Shown piece after piece: positions 12,652 through 23,426 of a stretch of 36,096 nt of DNA. This stretch comes from Laribacter sp. (GTDB lineage Bacteria; Pseudomonadota; Gammaproteobacteria; Burkholderiales; Aquaspirillaceae), in assembly GCA_018055005.1 (NCBI GenBank), contig JAGPIM010000006.1, forward strand, positions 1-36,096. The letters are read 5' to 3'. The notes below the pieces were generated by a model. It was given only the letters and a program-made list of their open reading frames with translations. It did not search any database and had not been told where the DNA came from. Position numbers and translations under genes: made by a program. Positions within the stretch are counted from its first letter, which is position 1; each line of letters opens with the position of its first letter.

Positions 12652-12677
12652 CAAGAAACCCGGCTCAGGGCCGGGTC
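12652..12677 (-). terminator. Terminator after the first BRO gene
   Basis: Minus strand ACCCGGC-CCTGA-GCCGGGT then TTCTTGTTTC, beginning at the stop of the BRO gene. It separates that gene from the convergent hic operon. Confidence 0.65.
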
Positions 12678-13185
12678 AGGAGAGAGGCAGGGAAGGCTGT
12701 ATTCGTTCCGCAACCTGCATGACGTGCTGCGTCAAAACAGGCTTTCGCTGCTTGTGGTCGTTCAGCCCTCGTCCGCACAGGCTGGCAAAGCGCTGCTGGT
12801 CGTCCAGTTCGGCCTTGGCCTCGTACCACTCCGCCATCAGCGAGCGATTGGCCTTGTCCTGTGTCTCGATACGTTCGAGCTGATCCAGTACCCAGCGGCG
12901 GAATGCTTGCCCCTTGGCCGTGCGGGCGAACATGCCCAGCAGATGGGCTCCACGCAGGCTGAACAGGCGCATTTCTATCGGAGGAACTCCATACCCCAAA
13001 CTGAGGCACCGAATTTCAGTCGTCATGGATGCAGTAAATTCTGCCGCATGGCGTGCGTAGATTTGTCCGATCTTGTTCGTACGGGCATATCCAAGTGCAC
13101 GCGCAATATCTGCCGACTTCAGCCATAGCCGGCCTTCATGCTCGATCAGTTGCAGAGGCTGGTTCTCAAACGTCAGTTTGTTCAT
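12676..13185 (-). CDS. BRO-N family protein (phage antirepressor-like), copy 1
   Basis: 169 residues from MNKLTFENQPLQLIEHEGRL, followed by WLKSADIARALGYARTNKIGQIYARHAAEF, the Bro-N domain core (LxxxDIARALGY). The middle has MRLFSLRGAHLLGMFARTAKGQAFRRWVLDQLE, the second Bro-N block. The C-terminal part is helical and unrelated to that of the other two copies here. Bro-N proteins bind DNA, and prophage members often act as antirepressors. The start at 13185 is chosen because a 42-residue upward extension would translate the two terminator hairpins. The ribosome site is weak (GTGAG). Confidence 0.8.
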   Translation of the reverse strand: MNKLTFENQPLQLIEHEGRLWLKSADIARALGYARTNKIGQIYARHAAEFTASMTTEIRCLSLGYGVPPIEMRLFSLRGAHLLGMFARTAKGQAFRRWVLDQLERIETQDKANRSLMAEWYEAKAELDDQQRFASLCGRGLNDHKQRKPVLTQHVMQVAERIQPSLPLS

Positions 13186-13220
13186 GGTCAATCTCACAAG
13201 GTAATAGGCCATGCGGCCAA

Positions 13221-13285
13221 CAAAAAAGCCCCACGGCACGAACCGTGAGGCCAGAAAAGCAAAAACCCCGCTTAATGGCGGGGCT
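13221..13285 (-). terminator. Two strong terminators upstream of BRO copy 1
   Basis: Minus strand CCCCGCC-ATTA-AGCGGGG then TTTTTG (13261-13283), followed by GCCTCACGGTT-CG-TGCCGTGGGGC then TTTTTTG (13222-13251). Both stems are GC-rich with clean T tails. BRO copy 1 therefore needs either a promoter between here and 13185 or an antiterminated transcript. Confidence 0.7.
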
Positions 13286-13512
13286 GTCGGGTGTCTTGTC
13301 ATGGCGGACACAACTCGACCACCACGGCGTCAATATACCAGATTCACATGGTTATTAGGAATTATTGGGTCGGTGTTTATATATAAAAAAGACTTGTTTT
13401 GCTGCTATCCATGGCCTAGCGGCATGGCGGATTTCGGCCCGGATGGCCGGCGTGGTGTGAGCCTGCCGGTGAAGTCTGACGATCGTCGGGATTCAGTCTA
13501 TAGCGTTTGTAG

Positions 13513-15017: not shown

Positions 15018-15497
15018 TCACTGCCCAAGCACCTGCCGCTCCATCGCCTGGTAATGCTCATCGCAGTGGCAGCGGAGCTTTTTCAGGCTGCCAATGAACA
15101 TGCCGATCTCGTGCCAGCTGTCGAATACCCGAGAGGCAATGGGTGCATTCAGCAACCGTAGCGGTGGCTCCAGTTCGCGCAGGGTGTCACGCATCATGTC
15201 CACCATGCAGAACACGCCATGCAAGTGATGGACTTCGCCAGCGGTCAGCTGGTAACTGCCGGGTTCGGCCTTGGTTCTGCGTGTGGTGGAGTAGGCTCCG
15301 GTCTTGCGGATCGTGGGAAGAACATCCTCCATTACCCGGGCCTCAAAGCGTTCAGCTTCAGGTTTGCGGCTTTTGACGATCAGGCGGTACAGGTTGGGCT
15401 CGTTGATGTACACCAGCTCCTGCTTTCCTCCATCGGTAAGGGTGTCGCGTTTCGCTACACCCTTTTCACGGCAGTTTTTCGTAGTGACTCTCGTACT
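15018..15497 (-). pseudogene. 5'-truncated BRO/antirepressor, copy 2
   Basis: The frame reads EKGVAKRDTLTDGGKQELVYINEPNLYRLIVKSRKPEAERF, the second half of a Bro-N domain, then a C-terminal domain almost identical to copy 3 (RKTGAYSTTR to the final ...LGQ). A TAA at 15498-15500 closes the frame upstream, and the first Bro-N block (the LWFVASDVAxAL region) is missing. A GTG at 15413 could start a 131-residue product lacking most of Bro-N. The GIY-YIG gene ends only 15 bases upstream, so the break coincides with that gene's arrival. Confidence 0.75.
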
Positions 15498-15512: not shown

Positions 15513-16067
15513 TTACTGGGAGCTCCGGAATCGAGCACATTTTCGGCACCAATGGCCTTGCATAATTGATATCGCGCTAGCATTCCACTGGTGGCCTTGG
15601 GAACACTGCCAGTTGTAATATCGGTTCACACCCTCGAACGTTGTAGTGAGGCAGGCTCCGCCATGTTTTGATGCCGCGATCTGCAGATCTTCGAGCGAAT
15701 ATTTGAATTTTCCCTCTCGCCAGCTGAATGGTTTTGGTTGGACATGCTGGTTTAGCAAGAAAACTCCTGACTGTGAAATCTGCTTCATCCAGTACATCTC
15801 ACGCTCGTTGGCTACTTCCTTTGAAACTTCCTCGACTACGAACATACGTGGCTCGTAACTGTGCTTTTCTTTCCAAACACGAAGGTGATCATTAAATCGT
15901 GATGCTGGAGCGTTTGACTGACCCACGTAGACGATTTGGTTGTCGGTAGGTCGAATCAAGACGTAGATTGCAACCTTGCCGCTGAGGCGCGGCGGTTTTG
16001 GTACCTCGTAGAGACGCGGAGGATGCAAGTTCTGACACCTCTTGATGATATTTTGATTATTAGCCAA
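15513..16067 (-). CDS. GIY-YIG endonuclease with C-terminal zinc finger
   Basis: 184 residues. The GIY-YIG core is visible: VAIYVLIRP (residues 32-40), IVYVGQSNAPASRFNDH (45-61, with the catalytic Arg57), and NEREMYWMKQI with the metal-binding Glu90. The C-terminal part has YYNWQCSQGHQWNASAISIM and GHWCRKC, a Cys155-His159-Cys174-Cys177 finger like those attached to homing endonucleases. The composition is less GC-rich than the replication genes. It sits directly against the broken end of antirepressor copy 2 and carries no visible intron. It is probably a free-standing homing-type nuclease. Confidence 0.85.
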   Translation of the reverse strand: MANNQNIIKRCQNLHPPRLYEVPKPPRLSGKVAIYVLIRPTDNQIVYVGQSNAPASRFNDHLRVWKEKHSYEPRMFVVEEVSKEVANEREMYWMKQISQSGVFLLNQHVQPKPFSWREGKFKYSLEDLQIAASKHGGACLTTTFEGVNRYYNWQCSQGHQWNASAISIMQGHWCRKCARFRSSQ

Positions 16068-16370: not shown

Positions 16371-16404
16371 CCTACCAGAACCGTTGAATCACAGGGTACG
16401 AATA

Positions 16405-16433
16405 GAGCAGCCCCGGCAAGGCCGGGGCTGCTC
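16405..16433 (-). terminator. Terminator of antirepressor copy 3
   Basis: A perfect 13-bp stem GAGCAGCCCCGGC/GCCGGGGCTGCTC with a 3-base loop starts just after the antirepressor stop, followed on the minus strand by TATTCG. The related sequence after copy 2 (15003-15015) has kept one arm and lost the perfect match in the other. Confidence 0.65.
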
Positions 16434-16435
16434 TA

Positions 16436-17047
16436 TCACTGCCCAAGCACACGCCGTTCCATCGCCTGGTAATGCTCACCGCAGTGGCTGCGCAGCTTTT
16501 TCAAACTGCCAATGAACATGCCGATCTCGTGCCAGCTATCAAACACTCGCGGGGCAATGGGTGAGTTCAGCAGCCGTAGCGGCGGCTCCAGCTCGCGCAG
16601 GGTGTCACGCATCATGTCCACCATGCAGAACACGCCGTGCAAGTGATGGACTTCGCCCGCGGTCAGCAGGTAGCTGCCGGGCTCGACTTTGGCTTTGCGC
16701 GTGGTGGAGTAGGCTCCGGTCTTGCGGATCGCCGGCAGTACCTCGGAAGTGACCCACTTCTTGAACCGCTTGGCTTCGGGCTTGCGACTGCGAAGGATAG
16801 CCGAGTAAAGGCCGGATTCGCTGATCGTAGACACCTCTTGTGCCCCGCCAAGGGTGTCCACAATCTGGACATCCTTTTCATCATTGTCCAGATGGCGAAG
16901 CATATGCGGCGTATGCGAGTACTCAAGCGCAGTGGCTACATCGGATGCTACAAACCATAGTGCGCCATCCTTGTTGAGGATGCGAACAGCGTGGGCATTG
17001 AAGTTGAATGTGGTTGGTGCGGACGCACGTTGGGCTGTGTTATGCAT
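16436..17047 (-). CDS. Phage antirepressor (BRO-N family), intact copy 3
   Basis: 203 residues from MHNTAQRASAPTTFNFNAHA, with CAGGAG six bases before the ATG. The Bro-N domain is complete: VRILNKDGALWFVASDVATALEY, then LGGAQEVSTISESGLYSAILRSRKPEAKRFKKWV and EVLPAIRKTGAY. The C-terminal domain (GSYLLTAGEVHHLHGVFCMVDMMRDTLREL ... GQ) is shared with copy 2. In phages, such proteins inactivate the resident repressor. The leader from 17280 to 17048 carries a C4-like RNA and matching target sites, so expression is probably controlled as for P1 ant. A short leader frame overlaps its start. Confidence 0.85.
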   Translation of the reverse strand: MHNTAQRASAPTTFNFNAHAVRILNKDGALWFVASDVATALEYSHTPHMLRHLDNDEKDVQIVDTLGGAQEVSTISESGLYSAILRSRKPEAKRFKKWVTSEVLPAIRKTGAYSTTRKAKVEPGSYLLTAGEVHHLHGVFCMVDMMRDTLRELEPPLRLLNSPIAPRVFDSWHEIGMFIGSLKKLRSHCGEHYQAMERRVLGQ

Positions 17048-17264
17048 GATTTTGCTCCTGTGCTGCGGCTGTGTTTTCCGCTTCCCCGCTTCCAAACGGG
17101 TGGGGCGGAACCGTGCGGGTTGGAAGACCGGGCACAGGACCGGTAGGGCTTGCGCCCTCCCGCACGGCTCGCCCCATAAAAGGGCGTGACCATGCAACGG
17201 ACACAAAAATACCGCTCTCGCGGCGGTGTCCGCCTGTACTACCGGGCTTCCAAACCCGCATCAC
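17040..17264 (-). CDS. Icd-like leader peptide overlapping the antirepressor start
   Basis: 74 residues, GTG or ATG start (VMRVWKPGSTGGHRRESGIF), running across the C4-like RNA and ending TAA eight bases inside the antirepressor gene. The segment RTVPPHPFGSGEAEN is the phrase typical of peptides labelled host cell division inhibitor Icd-like or Ash; it results from the C4 stem sequence. In P1, icd overlaps ant1 and its translation is needed for ant1 expression. The same layout is seen here. No good Shine-Dalgarno is visible, and a toxic role is not shown. Confidence 0.45.
   Translation of the reverse strand: MMRVWKPGSTGGHRRESGIFVSVAWSRPFMGRAVREGASPTGPVPGLPTRTVPPHPFGSGEAENTAAAQEQNHA
17088..17097 (-). 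promoter_or_regulatory. Downstream C4 target site
   Basis: Minus strand GTTTGGAAGC, 41 bases before the antirepressor ATG. Its TTGGAAG is complementary to CTTCCAA in the C4-like RNA (17120-17126), and the same 10-mer recurs at 17246-17255. This matches P4 seqC or the P1 ant-proximal target. Confidence 0.65.
17102..17175 (-). ncRNA. C4-like antisense RNA (P1/P4 immunity RNA type)
   Basis: On the minus strand, GGGGCG and CCGTGCGGG at the 5' side pair with CCCGCACGG and CGCCCC at the 3' side (17159-17175 with 17102-17119), enclosing two hairpins: AGGGC-GCAA-GCCCT with a GNRA loop, and ACCGG-TCCTGTGC-CCGGT. The single-stranded joint has CTTCCAA (17126-17120), complementary to identical sites on both sides. 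A 74-nt closed junction with two hairpins, located before an antirepressor, is the layout of C4 RNA (about 77 nt, Rfam C4). It would be cut from the leader transcript and block expression by pairing with it. Confidence 0.75.
17204..17228 (-). terminator. Leader terminator between target site and C4-like RNA
   Basis: Minus strand ACCGC-CGCGAGA-GCGGT then ATTTTTGTG. It lies between the upstream target site and the C4-like RNA, the position where P4-type immunity ends transcripts prematurely. Confidence 0.65.
17246..17255 (-). promoter_or_regulatory. Upstream C4 target site
   Basis: Minus strand GTTTGGAAGC, identical to 17088-17097, seven bases after the possible start of the Icd-like peptide and about 25 bases after the predicted transcript start. 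Pairing with CTTCCAA of the C4-like RNA would cover the peptide's initiation region. Equivalent to P4 seqA. Confidence 0.65.
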
Positions 17265-17285
17265 GCTATTGAACGCGACGGAGCG

Positions 17286-17314
17286 AAGATAGCCCGGAAG
17301 GTTTTAAAAGTCAA
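17286..17314 (-). promoter_or_regulatory. Promoter of the C4/antirepressor leader
   Basis: Minus strand TTGACT (17309-17314), 17-bp spacer, TATCTT (17286-17291). This is a near-consensus sigma70 promoter aimed at the leader, with transcription expected to start near 17280. No CI-type TTAGG operator overlaps it, so it may be active in the lysogen, as the C4 promoter of P1 is. Confidence 0.65.
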
Positions 17315-20261: not shown

Positions 20262-21902
20262 TCATGCCACCCCCTGCAAAGAGAGGGCGATTGCGACCGG
20301 GCGTACCCATATCGGGGTTGAGGACAGCACGAAGGTCTGACCTGACCATGCCAGCAGCAGGGTGGTGCCCATGACTTCGGCAATGGCTTGTGCCGCGGCC
20401 GGCGGTACCGCATTCCCGATACGCTCGCGCCAGCCGCTGTCCGACAGGCCGTCGAGCTCCAGATACTCCTCCGGGTCAATGAGGGACTGCAGGGCGGCCA
20501 GTTCCAAGGTGGTGAATGGCCGGTGCCACGTGCCGTCAATGGAACGGATCACCGCCAGCAGCTTGTCGCTGGTGGCCGGCATCCGTGGGTCCGCAACGGC
20601 ACAGGCGCCGTTGGCATTGCCGGCGATGACCGTACGTGCCGGGTCTTCCCAGTGCTCGACCTTGTATTTCCCGTGGAGGCTGGCCGGGTCTTCGGCGCCT
20701 CGAGGGTCGGCAACAGCCTGCCCACCCGAACTGGGGCCGTTCCAGCCGGTGACCGTTCCAGCGGCTTGATCGAAGTCGACGACGCGGAATACGTTGTTGT
20801 GGCGTACCTTCCCGGACCGCGGATCAGCAACCGAATACTTGCCACCACCCGGGGCGGACTGGCTGCTGATTGCCCCTGCAGGCCCATGCCATGGGAGAAC
20901 ACCGTACTGGCTGTACTCAGCCATGCTGGCGCGGGGATCGGCGACAGAGAATGCGCCGTTGCTCGGGGTTGAACGGCCGGCAACGGTACCGACCGCCTCG
21001 TCCCAGCGGTTCACGCCAAGGTATCCGGATCGGTATTCCGGGACGATCAGGTAATCACGCAGGATGCCGTTCTCAACGGACAGCCTGTTCAGGCTGCGCC
21101 AGTCTCTGCCGGCTTCGACAAATGCCAGCCGTACCCATGTCTTCCATTGCAGGTTGGGGACACGATGCATCGGCCCGCCGGCCGGGTCACCCGGTAGCGG
21201 CATGCGACCGAGAACGCTCCCGACAGCCTGCAGGCGTTTTTTCTCGGGTTCGTAGAGGAAGGGCGGCACCTTCTCGATGTGGCGGGCAACCAGCAGGAAC
21301 CGCTTGCGGCTCTGCGCCAGCCCGCCGATTTCTCCGCAGTCGTGCGTTGTCTCGGCCACGGCATAGCCGTAGGCACGCAACAGGCTTCCGATTTGGTCCA
21401 GCAGGTACCGGCCACGGTTGGCGATACGCGGGACGTTTTCGAACACGATCAGCTCGGGCAGATCGTCTGCGAAGGCTTCCAGCATCAACCAGACGCCTCG
21501 TAGCGTCAGGCGGTTCAGCGCCTGATACCTGGCGGTCTTGCTGCGGGTTTCATTGAGCAGTCCGGAAAACCCCTTGCACGGGGCAGACAGGAACACGATA
21601 TGCGGGTACTCACCACCAGCCGCCGCACGAATGTCCAGAGGCCCGGCCTCACGCCATCCGGCCGGGGGTTCCGTGCCGTGGAAATCAGCAAACTGGCTGC
21701 GGTCGAACAGGTCCAGCACCGTGCCACTGGTACCGGTCAACCGCTCGAAATCACGGATGGCGGCAGCATCCACGTCGACACCGCCGATACAGCGGAACCT
21801 GCCGGTCATGCTGCCTACGCGGGGCGATGCATCGTTGAATCCCTTTGCTCCGCCGCCCAGACCGCAGAACAGGTGAAAGTGACGAATCTCGCGGATTTCC
21901 AT
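20262..21902 (-). CDS. C5 cytosine DNA methyltransferase with repeat-containing target region
   Basis: 546 residues from MEIREIRHFHLFCGLGGGAK; GGAGG precedes the ATG. Motif I is LFCGLGGGAKG (11-21), motif IV is SAPCKGFSG with catalytic Cys109, motif VI ENV (155-157), motif VIII QSRKR (197-201), motif X IGNAVPP (495-501). Between VIII and X the target-recognition region is expanded into four units of about 39 residues, each ending VADPR (320, 358, 397, 436). No partner endonuclease is nearby, so it is an orphan methylase, perhaps protecting phage DNA from host restriction. It abuts cII and lies upstream of the replication genes. Confidence 0.9.
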   Translation of the reverse strand: MEIREIRHFHLFCGLGGGAKGFNDASPRVGSMTGRFRCIGGVDVDAAAIRDFERLTGTSGTVLDLFDRSQFADFHGTEPPAGWREAGPLDIRAAAGGEYPHIVFLSAPCKGFSGLLNETRSKTARYQALNRLTLRGVWLMLEAFADDLPELIVFENVPRIANRGRYLLDQIGSLLRAYGYAVAETTHDCGEIGGLAQSRKRFLLVARHIEKVPPFLYEPEKKRLQAVGSVLGRMPLPGDPAGGPMHRVPNLQWKTWVRLAFVEAGRDWRSLNRLSVENGILRDYLIVPEYRSGYLGVNRWDEAVGTVAGRSTPSNGAFSVADPRASMAEYSQYGVLPWHGPAGAISSQSAPGGGKYSVADPRSGKVRHNNVFRVVDFDQAAGTVTGWNGPSSGGQAVADPRGAEDPASLHGKYKVEHWEDPARTVIAGNANGACAVADPRMPATSDKLLAVIRSIDGTWHRPFTTLELAALQSLIDPEEYLELDGLSDSGWRERIGNAVPPAAAQAIAEVMGTTLLLAWSGQTFVLSSTPIWVRPVAIALSLQGVA

Positions 21903-21904
21903 GA

Positions 21905-22360
21905 TCACCCCTCCACCCGGCGCAACATCCCGACGGTGGCGGAAAGCAGGTGCCGTAATTCGGCCGCGATCTGTTTCCGCTCCCCCGGGCTGATCTGTTC
22001 GCCCCATTCGCTGTCAGGGTGCTCGGCCTCGTCGATCTTGTGACCAACGTGCCCGCACTCGGCCGTCAGGCGGCAGAATTCACGGGCAAGATCCTTCATG
22101 CTGATGTCGCCAGTGGGTAGAGCGACAGTCGTCCGGTTGCACAGGGCCGCCAAAGCATCCGCAATGGCGGGATCCTGTGTCCGGTCGGTGATCTCGGCGG
22201 CCTCTTCCAGCGTCAGCTGGTTGCTGTCGTAATTCGGGTTCAGCTTGTTGGCCAGCGTGGTCGGGTTCTTGCCCATGACCGTGGCCAGCCCGGCGATGCC
22301 GTTGTGGAACCGCTTGGCCAGCATCTGGGCCGCAGCCGTGACGTGTGCGTAGGCTCCCAT
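21905..22360 (-). CDS. Phage regulatory protein CII (CP76 family)
   Basis: 151 residues, MGAYAHVTAAAQMLAKRFHNGIAGLATVMGKNPTTLANKLNPN. The GIAGLAxxMGKNPTTLANKLNPNxxxxxLTLEEAxEITxRTxD pattern is that of the Phage_CP76/CII family, a helix-turn-helix with a helical C-terminal part (FCRLTAECGHVGHKIDEAEH). Despite the name it is not related in sequence to lambda CII; it is thought to act in the lysis-lysogeny decision. It lies two bases after the cro-like gene and two bases before the methylase ATG, in one operon. Confidence 0.8.
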   Translation of the reverse strand: MGAYAHVTAAAQMLAKRFHNGIAGLATVMGKNPTTLANKLNPNYDSNQLTLEEAAEITDRTQDPAIADALAALCNRTTVALPTGDISMKDLAREFCRLTAECGHVGHKIDEAEHPDSEWGEQISPGERKQIAAELRHLLSATVGMLRRVEG

Positions 22361-22362
22361 GA

Positions 22363-22635
22363 CTAGCCTGCCTTTCTCATGGGGACCTGTGGGTGTTGAA
22401 CAATTACGCTAGCAGAGTTGCAATTCAGCTCAGGCCAGATCAGATGCCAGTCGTTCGGGAACAAGTCTTGTCTGCAAGCGATACCACGTTGCTCTGCGAA
22501 TGGGGCCAAGCGGATCAGCTTGTCATCTGGAATTCCACCCGTACGCCAGGCATGAACAGAGGGAGCTTTGATGCCAAGTAGTCGAGCTACAGCAGTTGTA
22601 CCGCCGAGCTTGTCTATGAGTTCGTTTGGGGTCAT
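22363..22635 (-). CDS. Cro-like/YdaS-type DNA-binding protein
   Basis: 90 residues from MTPNELIDKLGGTTAVARLL. The segment GGTTAVARLLGIKAPSVHAWRTGGIPDDKLIRLAPFAEQRG is the YdaS/Cro-like HTH (TxVARLLGxxxxxVxxWR...IPxxxxxxL). It is the first gene from the minus-strand early promoter and diverges from cI, the position of Cro. A start at 22671 would place the first residues inside the -10 region and is rejected. Confidence 0.8.
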   Translation of the reverse strand: MTPNELIDKLGGTTAVARLLGIKAPSVHAWRTGGIPDDKLIRLAPFAEQRGIACRQDLFPNDWHLIWPELNCNSASVIVQHPQVPMRKAG

Positions 22636-22661
22636 TGCGATGCAGTTCCGTATAAAGCAAT

Positions 22662-22734
22662 GAGCAAACATTAGGACTCGCTAACTACATTGTCAATAGC
22701 CTCTCCTTATTTCATTGTTGTTAGGATTGCCTAA
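22662..22734 (-). promoter_or_regulatory. Right early promoter (cro) and operators next to cI
   Basis: Minus strand TTGACA (22691-22696), 17-bp spacer, TAATGT (22668-22673): a consensus promoter for the cro operon. Operator-like palindromes are TTAGGACTCGCTAA (22671-22684), overlapping -10 and spacer, and TTAGGATTGCCTAA (22721-22734), overlapping the cI ribosome site and the first base of its ATG. A partial AATAGCCTCTCC lies between them. The 45 bases 22662-22706 recur inverted downstream of cI. Confidence 0.8.
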
Positions 22735-23426
22735 TGCTTTCCACACGACTACAACTCGCCATGCGTGAAGCTGGTATCAGCCAAGCCGAGCTTGCGCGCG
22801 CGTGCGGCGTCAAGCCTCCCAGCGTGAACGGCTGGCTGAGCGGTAAATCAAAGTTCCTGCGTGGCGAAAACCTCTTGGCCGCCGCCAAGGCGCTCAATGT
22901 TTCTCAGGCTTGGCTGGCCACAGGTAAAGGGCCAATGCATCCACGGCCAGACGAAGAGCTGATTCCTGCCTCGGTGGCGATGCCCCGCCCAGCAGATGGT
23001 TACATCAGCTTCGACATGCTTGACGTGGAGGCTGCGGCTGGAGCTGGATGCAACATGCTTGATTTCCCGGAAGTCGTACAGCGGGTCAATGTGTTGGAGT
23101 CTTGGGCGGGTTCAACCTTGGGGGGTGATCTATCCCGGATCAAGCTGATTTCGGCACGTGGAACCTCGATGCAGGGCACGATCGAGAACGGAGATGTTCT
23201 ATTCGTGGATGCCACTATCCGGGCCTACGATGGTGACGGCATCTACGTCATTGCTCGTGGGGGCGACGTACAGGTCAAGCGCCTGCAAAAGCTGCATGGT
23301 GACGTGCTGGCTATCATCAGCGATAACCGTGCCTATGAGTCGGAAAGGCTAATAGGCGATGAGGCGAACTCCGTAGTCGTATGCGGTCGGGTCCTGGCGG
23401 CTTGGTCAGTGCGTAAGTTCTGGTGA
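22734..23426 (+). CDS. CI-like prophage repressor, HTH plus S24 peptidase
   Basis: 230 residues. The N-terminal HTH (AGISQAELARACGVKPPSVNGWL, 13-35) is followed by an S24/LexA-type domain: cleavage site in VEAAAGAGC (Ala-Gly near 102-105), catalytic Ser145 in RGTSMQGTI, and Lys182 in GDVQVKRLQ. This is the RecA-responsive self-cleaving repressor that keeps both early promoters off. AGGA seven bases ahead of the ATG lies within operator TTAGGATTGCCTAA, suggesting control by its own binding. All key residues are present, so the lysogenic switch appears functional. Confidence 0.9.
   Translation: MLSTRLQLAMREAGISQAELARACGVKPPSVNGWLSGKSKFLRGENLLAAAKALNVSQAWLATGKGPMHPRPDEELIPASVAMPRPADGYISFDMLDVEAAAGAGCNMLDFPEVVQRVNVLESWAGSTLGGDLSRIKLISARGTSMQGTIENGDVLFVDATIRAYDGDGIYVIARGGDVQVKRLQKLHGDVLAIISDNRAYESERLIGDEANSVVVCGRVLAAWSVRKFW

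Follow-up and report, generated by a model that had tools for sequence, protein, structure and literature searches.

A C4-family antisense RNA locus upstream of a BRO-type antirepressor gene in Laribacter, and loop–target covariation among its relatives

The closest described relatives of the locus presented here are found in phages P1 and P7, in P4 and in Gifsy-1. The function of the C4 RNA in P1 and P7, and its processing by RNase P, have been summarised elsewhere: one C4 loop (b′) partly covers the ribosome site of the regulated mRNA, and a second (a′) adds specificity (PMC5320573). The CI RNA of P4 exerts its effect on termination, for which it pairs with seqA and seqC (PMC4825925). In Gifsy-1, the small RNA IsrK trans-activates an antirepressor >100-fold upon over-expression, and two compensatory mutation pairs, G28A/C162U and G31A/C159U, have been reported (PMC4825925). 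The same authors likened IsrK to P4 seqA, and the downstream RNA STnc1160 to the CI RNA (PMC4825925); the kinship of IsrK and P4 is therefore not a new discovery. Many C4-like RNAs per genome have been described in Acinetobacter baumannii, where co-option has been proposed for them (PMC5320573). Here, we report a C4 locus from Laribacter sp. and compare it with these systems.

The locus lies on the minus strand of a 36,096-nt stretch of contig JAGPIM010000006.1, which we refer to as “the window”. Its elements stand in the P1-type order, i.e., promoter, upstream targets (a1/b1), terminator, C4, downstream targets (a2/b2) and antirepressor start (Table 1). The near-consensus promoter of the original prediction was found, as was every part it listed for the leader (terminator, RNA, free CTTCCAA and BRO start), each where it had been placed. 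The prediction also held that two identical targets flank the RNA and are complementary to its free loop; a′ does fit both a1 and a2 exactly, over 7 nt each. The sequence GTTTGGAAGC occurs on the minus strand at 17255–17246 and 17097–17088, and is absent elsewhere in the 36 kb window. The prediction overlooked a second pairing, that of b′ with b2 in the Shine-Dalgarno region (8 nt) and with b1 (5 nt), the latter being shorter than in most relatives. The antirepressor start codon is at 17047, 48 nt from the end of C4. A second C4 locus in the same genome, of the Rha type (L007), has TTGACG-17-TATCTT at the equivalent place, with near-identical hexamers and spacing.

Table 1. Features of the C4 locus and of the CI/Cro region (positions in the window)
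Feature	Position	Strand	Basis or remark
Sigma-70-like promoter, TTGACT-17-TATCTT	17286..17314	−	Predicted +1 at ~17279
Leader RNA, ~75 nt, IsrK/seqA-like, terminator-ended, bearing a1 and b1	17205..17279	−	isrK and c4-a1b1 matches below cut-off
Target a1, TTGGAAG	17247..17253	−	Exact complement of a′
Target b1, ACAGG (5 nt)	17233..17237	−	Complement of b′
Intrinsic-terminator-like hairpin and T tract	17205..17227	−	
C4 antisense RNA (RF01695)	17096..17181	−	Covariance match and fold; mature RNA expected at ~17176–17098
C4 loop b′ (P3 hairpin loop), TCCTGTGC	17132..17139	−	Exact complement of b2
C4 free loop a′, CTTCCAA	17120..17126	−	Exact complement of a1 and a2
Target a2, TTGGAAG	17089..17095	−	
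Target b2, GCACAGGA, overlapping the antirepressor Shine-Dalgarno sequence	17056..17063	−	
45-codon open frame beginning at the ATG of C4, its stop codon overlapping the BRO start (ATGCATAA)	17040..17177	−	Same place as Gifsy-1 orf45
Antirepressor, Bro-N and P22_AR_C, 203 aa	16436..17047	−	Pfam and PHROG
CI-like repressor, HTH and peptidase S24	22734..23426	+	Domain searches
Cro-like regulator, divergent from CI	22363..22671	−	Pfam match just under cut-off

The Rfam C4 model (gathering score 45 bits) matches the minus strand at 17181–17096 over its full length (model positions 1–87), with a score of 60.2 bits (E = 2e-9), so that the covariance search by which the prediction was to be checked came out positive. 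C4 is the sole Rfam family above threshold across the whole window. The fold of the region beats all 200 of 200 dinucleotide shuffles (z = −3.6), and GG is present where the closing stem begins. The locus is thus confirmed as a true, if unexceptional, member of the C4 family, with two loops that each find two targets. The two leader models score below their cut-offs: c4-a1b1 (RF03163) matches 17292–17239 with 32.0 bits (cut-off 46.7), and isrK (RF01394) matches 17279–17205 with 33.7 bits (cut-off 50), its model position 1 falling at 17279. Since the position of the c4-a1b1 match and the letters of the targets fit, the leader probably works like c4-a1b1, though it is not filed as a member.

If the two loops are functional, they should change together with their targets. 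We searched for C4 in 300 genomes from the bacterial order to which the host belongs, and retrieved the loci with their flanks; 43 of the genomes carry C4, with up to 14 copies each. For 98 unique C4s, we recorded the length of the longest exact complement to each loop in either flank. Within the same locus, a stretch of at least 7 nt was found in 74 (a′–upstream), 70 (a′–downstream), 72 (b′–upstream) and 75 (b′–downstream) of the 98 loci; of the four pairings, b′–b2 is thus kept most often. When C4s and flanks were re-paired at random (5,000 permutations), the corresponding means were 11.7, 9.0, 6.5 and 5.4 and the maxima 23, 21, 16 and 14. These figures should not be taken as independent probabilities, given the relatedness of many of the 98 loci. 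In a few loci (e.g., L020 and L023), the P3 hairpin parser places the loops wrongly, which lowers the counts rather than raising them. Both a targets reach at least 7 nt in 62 loci, with 28 distinct a′ cores among them, and in 51 of these 62 both b targets also reach at least 6 nt. Stronger evidence than the permutation counts comes from closely related loci in which both loops and targets have changed: in 12 locus pairs with scaffolds at least 85% identical and differing loops, the a-loop cross-fit never exceeds 6 nt. The fit of loop and target is thus held by compensatory change across related loci, which is evidence for function. The covariation is a solid result, but it confirms a mechanism that was already established.

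A similar script applied to P1, P7, P4, N15, Gifsy-1, phiV10 and mEp460 returned the order a1/b1, C4, a2/b2 in each. Between P1 and P7 both loops differ, and so do the matched targets. P4 shows both loops in the same complementarity test. The original prediction had likened the window locus to the seqA/seqB/seqC scheme of P4; the complementarity of the targets to the free loop stands, but the scheme is not confined to one loop, being of the two-loop P1/P7 type with b2 on the Shine-Dalgarno sequence. A purely P4-like, one-loop scheme was rejected, since b′ and the Shine-Dalgarno region match exactly and covary. Duplex energies calculated for single loops separate own from foreign targets less cleanly than exact complementarity does; in the case of the window a′, the downstream flank of locus L006 scored slightly better than the own one. 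In L006, b′ fits the leader (CTATTACCA) but no b2 was found at the downstream ribosome site; this locus is possibly rearranged.

The gene downstream of C4 encodes a full-length protein of 203 aa, in agreement with the predicted intact BRO antirepressor. Bro-N (E = 9e-25, 87.6 bits, cut-off 25.6) and P22_AR_C (E = 2.5e-5, 24.7 bits, cut-off 22.4) both exceed their Pfam cut-offs, as expected of a P22-type antirepressor, and the best PHROG is the anti-repressor Ant (E = 1e-49). The CI-like protein is likely to provide primary immunity and is a possible target of the antirepressor, by analogy with described systems. The CI/Cro region adjoins a gene (20262–22007, minus strand) whose 581-aa product has a C-5 cytosine DNA methylase domain. 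Directly after the BRO stop codon there is a strong inverted repeat (AGAGCAGCCCCGGCcttGCCGGGGCTGCTCT, 16401–16436), a likely terminator with weak sub-threshold Rfam matches. A second, N-terminally truncated BRO/P22_AR_C copy (15018–15413, minus strand) is 81% identical to the C4-controlled BRO over 129 aa, and no C4 match was found upstream of it. Between the two copies lies a GIY-YIG endonuclease-like frame (15513–16067, minus strand, Pfam E = 8e-6), possibly a mobile insertion linked to the truncation. A third antirepressor-like protein (12676–13311, minus strand) has a weak Bro-N and an ORF11CD3 domain.

The original prediction regarded the pairing of C4 with a BRO-type gene as the less usual part of the locus, and here it was mistaken. 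Among 88 downstream frames scanned in the same order, no antirepressor type is commoner 3′ of C4 than Bro-N and Rha (six each), which are followed by ORF6N (two) and AntA (one); primase domains of P4-like elements account for ~7 to 10. C4 also precedes a BRO-type antirepressor in phiV10, where the gene is annotated as a Bro-N “putative anti-immunity protein”, and in the Pseudomonas phages PAJU2, YMC11/02/R656 and YMC11/07/P54, and it lies upstream of antirepressor homologues in Bordetella IFTN3 and Klebsiella NAR688. Because several other phages share the arrangement, BRO is not unusual as a controlled gene. In loci L001–L004, L013, L018 and others, C4 is followed by a short conserved frame (MPSFALRAFRALLSR...), in several cases with a primase frame further on; these loci look like P4-type satellites.

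The host genome (2.76 Mb in 262 contigs, 87% complete) carries seven C4 loci, all above the cut-off. Their downstream frames include Bro-N (the window), a Rha-like frame (L007) and a primase as in P4-type satellites (L001). No two of the seven cross-fit on both loops. A sister genome (G001, L131:4255-6256) has two tandem C4-BRO modules 1.4 kb apart with different a′ loops (CGTCCAA and CTTCCAA), and one of these modules is 94% identical to the window over 17298–17019. We also considered whether C4 loci of like specificity exclude one another from a genome, and rejected this: across 72 loci, cross-fit is not depleted within genomes (a′, 16.5% within and 14.1% between genomes; both loops, 1.2% and 0.6%). 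There is thus no sign that prophages of like specificity avoid each other.

The leader can be compared with IsrK in some detail. An isrK match lies upstream of the C4 match in all eight of eight reference records, above the cut-off in six and below it in P1 and P7; P4, N15, Gifsy-1, phiV10 and mEp460 have an above-cut-off isrK at the leader position. In Gifsy-1, isrK maps to 34316–34240 and C4 to 34214–34131, i.e., nt 103–186 counted from the IsrK start. There, orf45 lies on C4, since its first AUG, at nt 107, corresponds to position 5 of C4. By our mapping, C159U and C162U fall in or beside the a′ region of the Gifsy-1 C4, and the published mutation pairs therefore bear on a1:a′ pairing. A reading frame through C4 found no support as a general feature of these loci, since its length elsewhere ranges from 5 to 373 codons; given this lack of conservation, the 45-codon frame of the window is possibly incidental.

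Taken together, the window locus very probably serves a prophage as a secondary-immunity module of the kind represented by c4 of P1 and P7, even though the short b1 (5 nt), the leader models below their cut-offs and the lack of a separate icd between C4 and antirepressor count against this reading. By analogy with P1, P7, P4 and Gifsy-1, the promoter would give rise to a transcript, part of which would end at the leader terminator; C4 would be excised from the read-through transcript as an RNA of ~77 nt. Acting in trans, a′ would pair with a2, and the P3 loop b′ with b2, on the antirepressor mRNA. The BRO/P22-type antirepressor would thereby not be made, the CI-like repressor would stay active, and an incoming phage bearing the same targets would be silenced too. 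The same loops could act on a1/b1 in the leader, either by promoting early termination or by being titrated by the leader RNA, for which a role as a C4 sponge is plausible. Because b′ can pair without a mismatch with the Shine-Dalgarno region of BRO, a direct block of translation is the most likely mechanism, in which C4 would cover the antirepressor ribosome site, anchored by a′ on a2.

An alternative, which we consider unlikely, is that termination dominates, with C4 pairing with a1 in the nascent leader and with a2, and occlusion of the ribosome site being secondary. The terminator does sit between the first target and C4, and P4, whose CI RNA works through termination, shows the same arrangement of parts; however, b′ is complementary to the Shine-Dalgarno region over 8 nt without a mismatch, and b′–b2 is the pairing kept best, in 75 of 98 loci. 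Since P4 itself has a b2, the two modes are not exclusive. Somewhat more probable, although still not the reading we favor, is a switch like that of Gifsy-1, in which the short leader is a trans-acting activator (a C4 sponge) that turns the antirepressor on and C4 silences the mRNA in cis, possibly with translation coupled through the 45-codon frame. IsrK occupies the equivalent place in Gifsy-1, where the compensatory mutations and the >100-fold trans-activation fit a1:a′ pairing; the window frame begins at the same C4 position as orf45, with its stop overlapping the BRO start; and the predicted best fold of the full leader pairs leader with C4 region. Arguing against such a switch are the isrK score under the cut-off in the window, the lack of conservation of the frame, and the fact that activation was observed upon IsrK over-expression. 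A more general version, in which the terminated leader of C4 loci is an active anti-C4 RNA as in Gifsy-1, would give each prophage a matched pair of opposing small RNAs, with many pairs per host (seven here) kept mutually orthogonal by two short loops; we regard this as a tentative and rather doubtful extension. Decay of the locus to a remnant, or co-option of C4 by the host for other mRNAs, is very improbable: the seven loci in the host, the proposal made for A. baumannii and the truncated BRO copy point that way, but the promoter, the two targets, the fold of C4, the complement to the Shine-Dalgarno sequence and the antirepressor gene at its full length all remain intact, and a sister genome has a leader/C4 region sharing 94% identity with that of the window.

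Read as a secondary-immunity module, the locus adds a well-formed C4 system from a poorly studied host. Across dozens of prophages and satellites, both C4 recognition loops change in step with their targets, which suggests that immunity specificity can be read from ~15 letters of sequence. The comparison also places P1/P7 c4, the P4 CI RNA and Gifsy-1 IsrK on one common anatomy, so that the part played by the short leader can be put to a direct test.

The window locus shares with c4-icd-ant (immI) of P1 and P7 the a1/b1 targets, a C4 with a′ and b′, the a2/b2 targets with b2 at the ribosome site, an antirepressor under control, and a separate C1/CI-type immunity. The P1 operon differs in having icd between C4 and an Ant1/2 antirepressor, whereas the window has only the 45-codon frame overlapping C4, and its antirepressor is of the Bro-N/P22_AR_C type. 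With the P4 CI RNA system (seqA, seqB and seqC), the locus shares the order of first target, terminator, antisense RNA and second target; P4 controls its replication genes by termination, whereas the gene controlled in the window is an antirepressor. Gifsy-1 IsrK-orf45-anrP likewise has a leader with a terminator, a C4 overlapping orf45, and an antirepressor, with a 45-codon frame whose end overlaps the start of the antirepressor; its leader is above the isrK cut-off, whereas that of the window is below. In P22 sar/Ant, as proposed for the window, an antisense RNA blocks the translation of an antirepressor of the P22 type, and the P22_AR_C domain is shared; in its position and structure sar is unrelated, and it is not known to use a double-loop scheme of the a/b kind. 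phiV10, PAJU2, R656 and P54 have C4 and an a1/b1 or isrK leader directly upstream of a Bro-N-like antirepressor, as in the window, and differ in their loop letters and hosts.
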